Below, one piece after another: positions 457 through 4,184 of a stretch of 21,029 bases of DNA. This DNA comes from a virus. Every line of letters starts with the position of its first letter. Within the stretch, counting starts at the first letter, position 1. The translations under genes were made by a program, and so were the position numbers. The notes below the pieces were generated by a model. The model did no database searches and was not told where the DNA came from. It was given only the letters and a program-made list of their open reading frames with translations. The stretch covers positions 1 through 21,029 of the IMG/VR virus record IMGVR_UViG_3300044630_001513; one strand, given 5' to 3'.

Positions 457-1248
457 TCAAATTACTGCTCTTTCTGGATCCGATATAAACATACGCTCAG
501 GTTGAAACTCAAGCATATGAACTGCTTTACCAGTTGGATCTGCCTTACCATAACGATTCTTAACACTGGCTACTCCGAGATAACCACCATTAGGATCTTG
601 TCCAATAGTTAGAATCAAAGCTGGTAACTGATTTACCATTCCTTGAATCGCTGCTCTTGGTTGACAAGGAGTTCCTTCATATGTTTCTTTTGTATGATGA
701 AGAACTATAACTGCAGCATTGGTTTCCCTTGCTAAAAATTTTAGTTCTTTCATTGCTGAACGCATACCAGACCACTCTTCTGCACCATCCATAGCAACAT
801 CCATCAAGTTATCTACGACAATCATTGATGGTGACTCTCCCCATAGTTCTTCGAATGCAAGAACATTCTGGTAAAGATCATCTAAGTTTGGAGCTGACTC
901 AAACAACCAATAGATATGTTTAGAACAATCTAGTTTTTGTTTGAAAGCTTCTGGTTCTTGTTCCATAGTACGCTCTGAATCAATCTGAGTAACACCAGTA
1001 ACCATTGAATACAATCGCATTGCCATTGTATGTAGGTTTGTATCAGCAGAGACATAAAGTGTTGGCACGTTTGCTCTTAATGCAATAGCTAATGCCAATG
1101 TACTTTTACCAGCACCAGGTGTTCCTGCTACTAGAGATACTTCTGCTCTTCTGAATATGATGTTGTTATTGGAAAGTGTTGTGAACACTGTAGGAATAGG
1201 TTCTCCACCAATGTCTTGCTTGCCAACAGATCTAATCAGTGTGCGCAT
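457..1248 (-). CDS. DnaB/RecA-superfamily replicative ATPase (helicase-like)
   Basis: A 263-residue RecA-fold ATPase. Walker A is GTPGAGKST (residues 42-50), Walker B is MIVVDNL (142-148), followed by a VLHHTKE element (183-188) and a KNRYGKADPTG segment (230-240) like the Lys/Arg-Gly motif of DnaB and RepA-type hexameric helicases. It corresponds to the C-terminal motor domain of DnaB alone (DnaB is about 450-470 residues), with no N-terminal primase-interaction domain. Probable role: unwinding DNA at the phage fork or loading a recombinase. The ATG abuts the TAA stop of the upstream zinc-ribbon gene and has no clear ribosome binding site, so expression probably depends on translational coupling. 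It could also be a RecA-like recombination ATPase. Confidence 0.8.
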   Translation of the reverse strand: MRTLIRSVGKQDIGGEPIPTVFTTLSNNNIIFRRAEVSLVAGTPGAGKSTLALAIALRANVPTLYVSADTNLHTMAMRLYSMVTGVTQIDSERTMEQEPEAFKQKLDCSKHIYWLFESAPNLDDLYQNVLAFEELWGESPSMIVVDNLMDVAMDGAEEWSGMRSAMKELKFLARETNAAVIVLHHTKETYEGTPCQPRAAIQGMVNQLPALILTIGQDPNGGYLGVASVKNRYGKADPTGKAVHMLEFQPERMFISDPERAVI

Positions 1249-1686
1249 TTAAGCATTCACACTCTTACATTGCGATTGCCCTTTAGGCATCGAGCAAGAA
1301 TAGAATGCTGGATATCCTTTACCTGTTGTCTTAGACATTCCACCTTTAACAAATCGCATTGGACCGTGTTCGCACATTGGTACGACACCAGTCGGTGCGT
1401 TAGTTGGGACTGGGCTGAAGCCAGCAGGTCTTACTGGTGCAGGAGGAGTTGGCTTACTAGCCAATGGATCTGGAATTACAGTCCCATTAAATGCAGCTTG
1501 TATCTCTGCAACAGAAGTTGGTTTAAACTTTTGTTGTAATGAACTAATCATTTCGATTAGTACTTGATCATCGTGCAAGTTTGCAAGGTTAAGTGCAAAC
1601 TCATCTTTAGTGTCCCCTCTAACAGTTAATAGATCTCCATTAACTTTAGTAGTAAAGGAATATGTTGCTTCTGTTGTATTAGCCAT
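1249..1686 (-). CDS. Hypothetical protein with C-terminal zinc-ribbon
   Basis: A 145-residue protein. The N-terminal ~65 residues are mixed alpha/beta, a proline-rich linker follows (~residues 72-102), and the C-terminus carries a C-E-H-G...C...C pattern (CEHGPMRF...YSC...QCK) typical of a small zinc-binding module found in many actinophage replication operons. It lies between the exonuclease and helicase genes and overlaps the exonuclease fragment by 8 nt; GGAGAAATGA serves as ribosome binding site from inside that gene. The position suggests a DNA metabolism role, such as a loader or adaptor, but no catalytic motif is visible. Confidence 0.75.
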   Translation of the reverse strand: MANTTEATYSFTTKVNGDLLTVRGDTKDEFALNLANLHDDQVLIEMISSLQQKFKPTSVAEIQAAFNGTVIPDPLASKPTPPAPVRPAGFSPVPTNAPTGVVPMCEHGPMRFVKGGMSKTTGKGYPAFYSCSMPKGQSQCKSVNA

Positions 1687-2332
1687 TCATTTCTCCAATT
1701 GTGTGTGCTAACGATCCATTCCTCCACTTGCAATAATCTGTTCGAGAACACATCTTGCAGTTAGTTAAGTTAGGAATATATAAGTTAGCTTTCCTTGCTC
1801 TATTAAATTCCTTGATTAAATATTCTACTGTTGAAGTAGGTACTAAATCAAGATCTAATGGAACACCTGTACCACCTTGACGAGCCATCCAGTAGGTTCC
1901 CCAGCGAGGTCTAATTCCGAATGTCTGCTCCATTCCAGCAGCGTAGAACGCAAGCTGTAGGTCAGATGATGGAGTGTTCCTTCCAGTTTTAATATCCAGG
2001 ATAATTAATTCACCTTCAGGATTTACCATCACTCTATCAAGAACCATCTTGACAAGAGTGTTATCAAACTTTGGTGTTAAACCAAGTTCAATAGCTGGAT
2101 CTCCATTAGGTGTTTCCCAGATCTTCCAACCAGAATTTTTTTTCCAGTTAATCCAAGAGTTAACAAAGTCAATACCATTGTTGAACCACCAATCGTAGTT
2201 CTCGCCACCTGGATTTGCTTTTGTTGTTCTTACTGATTGCCTGAAATCTTCTTTAGCTACCTTGTCGTAGCCTCTGTCTTTAGATTCATAGTCCCAGGCT
2301 TCACGCCATATATCTTGAATGTCTAAGACCAT
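1679..2332 (-). CDS. Cas4/RecB-like PD-(D/E)XK exonuclease, C-terminal fragment
   Basis: A 217-residue protein holding most of a RecB/Cas4-family nuclease: E82 (IELG), D99 (MVLDRV), the catalytic D113-x-K115 (ILDIKTG), the QLAFY element (Q126, Y130) and three C-terminal cysteines, C192-x2-C195-x5-C201, expected to ligate an Fe-S cluster. It lacks the N-terminal part of the family: the first cluster cysteine and the motif-I histidine. Both are encoded by the separate ORF at 2705-2911, with another gene in between. It begins IQDIWREAWDYE, which would follow naturally after the end of that N-terminal fragment. The start overlaps the middle gene by 10 nt and is served by AAGGA. Probable role: DNA end processing or recombination, as two subunits if functional. 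Confidence 0.8.
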   Translation of the reverse strand: MVLDIQDIWREAWDYESKDRGYDKVAKEDFRQSVRTTKANPGGENYDWWFNNGIDFVNSWINWKKNSGWKIWETPNGDPAIELGLTPKFDNTLVKMVLDRVMVNPEGELIILDIKTGRNTPSSDLQLAFYAAGMEQTFGIRPRWGTYWMARQGGTGVPLDLDLVPTSTVEYLIKEFNRARKANLYIPNLTNCKMCSRTDYCKWRNGSLAHTIGEMNG

Positions 2333-2712
2333 AACTTGAATCCTTTTTCAATAGGTAAGTAACCAACTATCTTAGTTACTTTTTCTTGGTTCTCAAAGTC
2401 TGTAGTTGCAGGAAGATTCTTTTGTTCTGCAAACTCTACATCCATAGTTAGTAAGTTAAATCCCCAAGCACCTTTAGGTGTGGCATTGAAGTAAGCAGGA
2501 ACTAATCTTTTAGTACTTGCTTCTTCTAGTAACCTGGCATACTTAGAGTATTCGATTAACAAAGTATCGTAATGGGTCATTCGACATTTAAGTTCTATGT
2601 ATGCACCAAGTTGTTTTGATGTGCAGTCATTAGTTGAAAACTTATTATCACTCTTAACTAGATCAGGGATAACTGCTTTTAACTTATCAAAAAATTCTTG
2701 TTCGTTATACAT
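2323..2712 (-). CDS. PD-(D/E)XK nuclease-like protein inserted between exonuclease halves
   Basis: A 129-residue protein located between the N- and C-terminal fragments of the Cas4-like exonuclease, overlapping the first by 8 nt (ATGTATAA) and the second by 10 nt. The sequence has a possible nuclease core: D22/D29 upstream, then AYIELKCR with E40-x-K42, followed by a helix with YDTLLIEYSKYARLL and a YFNATPKGAWGFNL segment. Similar IELK-R...LIE-KY proteins occur in environmental phages and look like small PD-(D/E)XK endonucleases. Placement inside a split gene resembles free-standing phage homing endonucleases, but homing activity is inference. It could equally be an independent nuclease or a partner subunit. 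Only a weak ribosome binding site is seen, so translational coupling is likely. Confidence 0.65.
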   Translation of the reverse strand: MYNEQEFFDKLKAVIPDLVKSDNKFSTNDCTSKQLGAYIELKCRMTHYDTLLIEYSKYARLLEEASTKRLVPAYFNATPKGAWGFNLLTMDVEFAEQKNLPATTDFENQEKVTKIVGYLPIEKGFKLWS

Positions 2713-2911
2713 TCTTGGATGCTTCCCATTCTCTCAAGTCATAAAGTTCAGTTGCCTTATGCACTGCTGATCCACCTAAGTTCCAGATAGCTGGTGTCTC
2801 TGGTGTGTCCACAATCCTTGACAGAAAGTACAACCATCCACACTCTAACCAAGTTGTGAATGCAGAATAACTAACGTGCTCAGGTATTTTGTAATCATCA
2901 ATTTCAATCAT
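2705..2911 (-). CDS. Cas4/RecB-like exonuclease, N-terminal fragment
   Basis: A 68-residue ORF that matches only the start of Cas4/RecB-type nucleases: IPEHVSYSAFTTWLECGWLY supplies the family's S-x-S...W-x-x-C-x3-Y element, with C24 as the expected first Fe-S ligand, and NLGGSAVHKATELYD supplies the G-x3-H motif with H51. It stops after LREWEASKNV, exactly where the family continues into the region encoded by 1679-2332. It has the strongest ribosome binding site of the block (AAAGGAGG, 8 nt before ATG), and that site lies in a predicted hairpin. It is the first gene of the leftward replication unit. It may be a functional small subunit acting with the C-terminal fragment, or a decaying remnant. 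Confidence 0.75.
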   Translation of the reverse strand: MIEIDDYKIPEHVSYSAFTTWLECGWLYFLSRIVDTPETPAIWNLGGSAVHKATELYDLREWEASKNV

Positions 2912-3133: not shown

Positions 3134-3183
3134 CTATGGTGTGTCAGGTTTTATGTGCTATTCTAGTCTACGTTAGGAGGCAA

Positions 3184-3531
3184 ATGCTATTTCTAATACC
3201 ACCTATTGACTTGCCTGTCGAAAGCCAGCCTTTCGTACGCACCTGGTCACCACCAGCCTCTCGTTCATATGTCAGATTTTATGTTCGAGGATTAGGTTGG
3301 AATGATGAAGAGTGGAAGTGTCTTGATGAGCTCGTTAATCGTGAGTCTCGTTGGGATATGAGAGCAGATAACCCTAAGTCTAGTGCTTTTGGTTTATTCC
3401 AAGTTCTTAAAACTAAGGAAGACTCAACACTTCAAGACCAGGTAGAAGCAGGTCTTAGATACATTGACTCCAGGTATGACGGCTCAAGTTGTGAAGCTTT
3501 ACGCCACCATAACAGGAGGAATTGGTATTAA
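3184..3531 (+). CDS. Lytic transglycosylase-like peptidoglycan hydrolase (small endolysin)
   Basis: A 115-residue protein when started at the ATG at 3184, which is preceded by AGGAGG (3175-3180); the frame is open to an ATG at 3136, but that start lacks a ribosome binding site. Residues ~38-115 fit the lysozyme-like SLT fold: LGWNDEEWKCLDELVNRESRW with the presumed catalytic E54, then NPKSSAFGLFQ, then QVEAGLRYIDSRYDG and a C-terminal HHNRRNWY. Such enzymes cleave the glycan strand of peptidoglycan and serve in phage lysis or cell entry. No signal peptide or membrane segment is evident (the N-terminal MLFLIPPI stretch is short and proline-broken), so a holin or virion association would be needed. 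It lies divergent from the replication genes, with a zinc-ribbon gene directly downstream. Confidence 0.75.
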   Translation: MLFLIPPIDLPVESQPFVRTWSPPASRSYVRFYVRGLGWNDEEWKCLDELVNRESRWDMRADNPKSSAFGLFQVLKTKEDSTLQDQVEAGLRYIDSRYDGSSCEALRHHNRRNWY

Positions 3532-3865: not shown

Positions 3866-4002
3866 TACATATCCTTTAATGAGTTCTTAGCCCCACATAG
3901 AGCACAATCATCAGTGAGGTCGTAGTCTATGTCGTTATACATCTCTTCGCAGACATAGCATTTAACCCATTGGATCTTTAGTTTAATATCTCCAAAGCTC
4001 AC
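3865..4002 (-). CDS. Zinc-ribbon miniprotein (45 aa)
   Basis: A GTG start (4002-4000) overlaps the TGA of the preceding gene (GTGA), and the TAA stop overlaps the next ATG. The 45-residue product has two CXXC knuckles, C15-x2-C18 and C33-x2-C36, separated by an acidic loop (EEMYNDIDYDLTDD). This is the expected layout of a minimal zinc ribbon. Function is unknown; similar miniproteins occur several times in this operon. The coupled overlaps on both sides support it as a real gene. Confidence 0.6.
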   Translation of the reverse strand: MSFGDIKLKIQWVKCYVCEEMYNDIDYDLTDDCALCGAKNSLKDM

Positions 4003-4184
4003 AGATACTCCATATTTATTTTAGCTTCTTTATTAGTATCTAATAGCTCTGGACTAATGAAGCGATCCTTAATGAACTCTTCGATAGTGTTAGAGGTTAT
4101 TGGATAATCTAAGCTCCAGGATTTTATCTCTGGCATTAGTTTATCTATGTCATAAACCATAGAATAAGTTATCTTAATCTTCAT
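3999..4184 (-). CDS. Hypothetical protein, 61 aa
   Basis: A small soluble protein starting MKIKITYSMVYDIDKLMPEI, with no recognised domain. Its ATG overlaps the TAA of the upstream gene by one base (TAATG), and its TGA overlaps the following GTG. The MK(I/V)K(I/V) beginning is shared with its two upstream neighbours (MKVKVTDLHEYKEA and MKIEVKSHADFKRV), which suggests the three adjacent genes may be diverged relatives. No ribosome binding site independent of coupling is obvious. Confidence 0.65.
   Translation of the reverse strand: MKIKITYSMVYDIDKLMPEIKSWSLDYPITSNTIEEFIKDRFISPELLDTNKEAKINMEYL

Follow-up and report, generated by a model that had tools for sequence, protein, structure and literature searches.

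Which came first, the split of an enzyme gene or the nuclease gene lying between its two parts? The question is raised by a viral DNA stretch of 21,029 nt (IMG/VR record IMGVR_UViG_3300044630_001513, positions 1 to 21,029; hereafter, the window), in which a 129-aa ORF (2323..2712, − strand) is lodged between the two parts of an exonuclease. This ORF starts with ATG and, as described in the original prediction, shares 8 nt with the upstream exonuclease N gene (2705..2911, −; 68 aa) and 10 nt with the downstream exonuclease C gene (1679..2332, −; 217 aa); it has the sequence IELK at residues 39-42, the codons of E40-L41-K42 being found by translation at 2587..2595 (−). The flanking pieces are indeed two halves of one exonuclease, as had been proposed from the sequence alone, with consecutive parts of phrog_1870 matched by the N half (positions 11-66, E 5e-8) and the C half (positions 77-291, E 2.5e-46); PF12705 matches both halves, with an E value of 3.5e-6 for C and a match below the Pfam cut-off for N. 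Further downstream in the same operon are a gp49-like gene (1249..1686, −; PF25690, E 6.4e-8) and a DnaB-like replicative helicase gene (457..1248, −; phrog_243, E 9.3e-74).

The 129-aa ORF is a real gene and not a chance ORF, since the same gene order, with the ORF at 93-98% identity, is kept in four further contigs, relatives are encoded in at least 153 viral contigs, and dN/dS ranges from 0.06 to 0.20 among the copies of the window clade. The start of the exonuclease N gene is preceded by a strong AAAGGAGG site, and plausible ribosome sites are located inside the preceding gene both for the ORF (GGAAG) and for exonuclease C (AAAGGA). Taken with the overlapping starts and stops, these sites make translational coupling across N, the ORF, and C likely. 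A possible hairpin with the AAAGGAGG ribosome site was also noticed just 5' of the exonuclease N gene (2912-2960, −).

The guess that the ORF encodes a protein with a nuclease fold held up well. Across 20 aligned relatives, among which are copies from two contigs of Bacteroidota MAGs (L092 and L093), residues D29, E40, K42, R44, T46-H47-Y48, E54, and K57 are invariant and E6 nearly so, and the AlphaFold2 model (pLDDT 89.9, pTM 0.81) has the order of elements of a PD-(D/E)XK-like fold. Among solved structures, archaeal Holliday-junction resolvases come closest to this model (2wiw_A, Z 13.0, rmsd 2.5 over 106 residues; 2wcw_B with Foldseek, E 1.3e-4), while the PD-(D/E)XK homing endonuclease I-Ssp6803I gives a Z of 7.1; in BFVD, several uncharacterised phage proteins and one named endonuclease share the fold. 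At the sequence level, neither Pfam nor PHROGs holds a family for the ORF; a sequence search of the PDB returned nothing for the single protein and one chance-level match for the profile; the Hjc family PF01870 picked up one of the 20 members, at an E of 0.2 that did not reach the cut-off, and had no match in a search of five phage records. The predicted structure thus supports an Hjc-like fold for the ORF product, and membership of the Hjc family is unsupported because the PF01870 sequence test failed and cleavage activity is only putative. The two MAG-derived relatives (39-42% identity) come from contigs that binning had placed in Chitinophagaceae and Aequorivita; given its gp49-like and tail-type genes, L092 is probably a phage contig binned in error.

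The ORF product would act separately from the exonuclease; most likely, it is a structure-selective endonuclease that serves replication and recombination by cutting branched DNA. A separate phrog_244 resolvase of 111 aa, with no sequence similarity to the ORF, is encoded in G002, a 40-kb genome of the window clade, so that the ORF would be the second such nuclease there. More broadly, the ORF family appears as a widespread group of uncharacterised Hjc-fold nucleases that are candidates for activity on branched DNA.

The original prediction further held that insertion of the ORF had created the split, and it is on this point that related phages are most informative. In the cultured Planktophila phage F5 (OX376641; PMC10202952), the exonuclease is encoded by two frames that overlap (L006, 8658-8473 and 8489-7881), no gene intervening, and the ORF homologue (44% identity) is found at 4300-3905, flanked by a DUF1599/MazG-like gene and a sigma factor; the arrangement is the same in the cultured Planktophila phage E7 (L007). 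These two phages belong to a set of 42 loci where the exonuclease is split and the ORF homologue lies 3.4-4.8 kb downstream, not between the halves; a different 71-aa gene separates the halves in two of them (L027 and L028), and the halves overlap or adjoin in the remaining ones. A wider search with the C half yielded loci L094-L172, nearly all split, among which 17 split-exonuclease records gave no match to the ORF family; one has to keep in mind that metagenomic contigs may be incomplete, but 11 of these 17 are genomes of 34-41 kb, and the ORF family was detected in seven of seven positive records. The split exonuclease in the 42 loci and in these 11 genomes means that the split does not need the ORF, and the claim that the ORF made it is not supported. 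Nor did we see, in close relatives without the ORF, the undivided exonuclease gene predicted as its homing target: the sole intact freshwater relative, L119, stands on its own long branch and is known from one 4-kb contig whose place in the tree is uncertain.

These data weigh heavily against the scenario in which a free-standing homing endonuclease entered an exonuclease gene that was still whole, divided it in the way mobE divided nrdA in phage Aeh1 (PMC2988022), and later left most lineages. Besides the mobE precedent, this scenario can call on the nuclease fold of the ORF, on its precise position with overlaps on both sides, and on its presence in one and absence from the other of the near-identical L098 and L099. 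The last comparison is not clean, however, as some 20 nt around the insertion also differ between the two; moreover, most relatives are split without the ORF, the ORF is usually located elsewhere, and unrelated genes that do not encode nucleases are found at the same point. We regard this scenario as quite improbable.

The same genomes speak to the suggestion that the ORF is an obligate third subunit of a three-part exonuclease. Its co-direction and overlap with both halves in the window clade, a near-adjacent position in L100-L102 and L107, and the purifying selection acting on it would all suit a subunit. Yet the split exonuclease is found without any ORF match in the 11 genomes of 34-41 kb, the ORF is also carried by L023, a phage whose exonuclease is intact and of a different kind, and it occurs in contig L093, where neither the N nor the C half was detected in the 10 kb examined. 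A third subunit is, therefore, highly improbable. In L023, which is the same kind of phage, the different exonuclease is an undivided one of Cas4 type (phrog_1674; 1801-2757) placed where the split one would be, and the ORF homologue comes further on, behind the sigma factor.

If the ORF did not make the junction, what else is found there? Across the split-exonuclease loci, at least nine unrelated families of inserts occupy the N|C boundary: the 129-aa ORF itself, DUF7004, a 162-aa protein of phrog_18407, a 60-aa protein with a relative at window 3999-4184 (53% over 45 aa), an SLT transglycosylase whose relative is encoded at window 3136-3531 (41%), and further ORFs that encode 71, 62, 35 (zinc-ribbon-like), and 26 aa. 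Near-identical phages differing by one insert are found in four pairs (L098/L099, L105/L111, L143/L138, and L014/L027). As for the two window genes with relatives among the inserts, the SLT transglycosylase-like gene (3136-3531, +) is divergent from the exonuclease N gene and has its relatives inside N|C of L137, L152, L161, and L168, and the 61-aa ORF (3999-4184, −) has its relative as the N|C insert of L111. The 162-aa gene (5516-6001 in L104) takes the place of the ORF at the junction in L103, L104, and L122-L124 and is also present away from the exonuclease in about 20 further contigs; an IEVRR motif, spotted by eye, suggests that its product may be another PD-(D/E)XK nuclease.

Many of the 118 split copies are near-identical, and inserts were counted in 50 representatives differing by more than 5%, with the C|gp49 and gp49|helicase boundaries of the same representatives as controls. 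An insert was present at N|C in 15 of 50 representatives, at C|gp49 in 9 of 50, and at gp49|helicase in 10 of 48 (p 0.15-0.36), and those of at least 45 aa were commoner at N|C (14 versus 6 and 5, p 0.019). N|C largely behaves like an ordinary gene boundary, and a strong claim that it is an insertion hotspot is weakened by the control counts. Programmed frameshifting from N to C was also considered; it is impossible where other genes intervene and unlikely elsewhere, the overlap or gap varying between −19 and +54 nt.

Recent turnover at a single site could also be expected of a homing endonuclease or mobile nuclease that entered the already split gene and now homes into N|C, and a seg endonuclease has perhaps entered an already split gene 43 in such a way (PMC2988022). 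However, genes that do not encode nucleases use the same place equally, the fold of the ORF is nearer to resolvases than to a PD-(D/E)XK homing endonuclease, and copies located away from the junction make up most of the ORF family, all of which leaves us with little belief in active homing.

In the tree built on N plus C, the window groups with L098, L099, L100, L103, L107, and L122 at 85/96 support. Four of these seven rows have the ORF in the junction (in L098 together with DUF7004), two have the 162-aa gene instead, and L099 has DUF7004 alone. The junction copies of the ORF may form one clade (p-AU 0.23), and the test does not reject a split that arose once, L119 being outside (p-AU 0.1). 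Such trees cannot tell gain from loss of the ORF; that it split the gene early and then departed from most lineages is nevertheless unlikely.

We are, thus, largely convinced that the window carries an old two-gene (N plus C) Fe-S exonuclease of the RecB/AddB/Cas4 type, of freshwater actinophages, and that the ORF is a nuclease of Hjc-like fold that is autonomous, entered a junction already in existence, and works separately. In most relatives the exonuclease is kept as two distinct frames between which no gene lies, and various small genes, the ORF among them, are found at the N|C boundary. The ORF most likely moved there in the ancestor of the window clade, or more than once; in other phages its gene has a different place within the same replication module, as in F5. 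Once in place, overlapping starts and stops would couple the translation of the neighbouring genes; N and C would assemble as the exonuclease, and the ORF product would cut branched DNA apart from it, alongside a resolvase of the phrog_244 type.

The two-gene Fe-S exonuclease is a more interesting object than the ORF itself. In all 118 split copies, S14, S16, C24, H51 (the motif His), and E55 of N are invariant, as are E82, D99, D113 and K115 (D113-x-K115), Q126 and Y130 (Q126xxxY130), and C192, C195, and C201 of C. The four putative Fe-S cysteines follow a 1 plus 3 pattern (C ... CxxCx5C), the first one, C24, being on N and the other three on C, and three intact homologues keep the same motif residues and cysteines of both halves. 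L119, the intact freshwater homologue (282 aa), has the same gene neighbourhood, and its predicted fold matches AdnA (Z 12.0), Dna2 (11.4), the Cas4-family ACE1 (11.1), and AddB (10.7); the break point of the split copies maps in this model to a loop (73-79) between two helices. AddB and Cas4 hold a structural Fe-S cluster with a 1 plus 3 cysteine pattern. We infer that N and C assemble into one enzyme whose active site and 4Fe-4S cluster are built from both chains. We lean slightly towards a fuller reading, where one active site and one cluster are formed by two polypeptides, the cluster stapling the 60-70 aa peptide that bears the motif His and the first Cys to the remainder, and where the split is old enough for the junction to have become a landing place for unrelated cargo genes, including an Hjc-fold nuclease. 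No split phage exonuclease of such a type was found in the literature searched, which is weak evidence. As the two-gene enzyme is present in cultured phages (E7 and F5), one can test whether an Fe-S cluster is able to join two subunits and what maintains the enzyme in split form.

How does this locus compare with known systems? The ORF product resembles the archaeal resolvases Hjc and Hje in its predicted fold, over nearly the whole protein, and in a conserved E/D/E-x-K residue set (E6, D29, E40, and K42), compared at the level of the whole set; unlike them, it is found in phages, and it has no significant sequence match to them. As regards gene order, the contrary case is that of phage Aeh1, where mobE, an HNH endonuclease gene, is taken to have made the split in nrdA (PMC2988022). 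In both systems the two halves of an enzyme gene flank a nuclease gene, and the frames overlap or adjoin, but here the split exists without the ORF, and the ORF is of the PD-(D/E)XK type. A nuclease gene between gene halves need not be the cause of the split; when relatives are numerous enough, one can examine which came first, and in the present case the split is found without the nuclease. The precedent that comes nearest is the DNA polymerase of the Aeromonas T4-like phages 25 and 44RR, whose split genes 43A/43B a seg endonuclease may have entered once they were already divided (PMC2988022): there as here, a replication gene is kept as two coding regions with different junction elements in different phages, whereas the gene concerned here is an Fe-S exonuclease and its junction receives many unrelated cargo genes, mostly not endonucleases. 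As for the enzyme itself, N plus C shares its fold, motif residues, and 1 plus 3 cysteines both with Fe-S exonucleases of the AddB/AdnA/Cas4 type and with the undivided phrog_1870 exonucleases of mycobacteriophages and Rhodococcus phages; it differs from all of them in being encoded by two genes, one of which supplies a piece of 60-70 aa carrying the motif His together with the first Cys.
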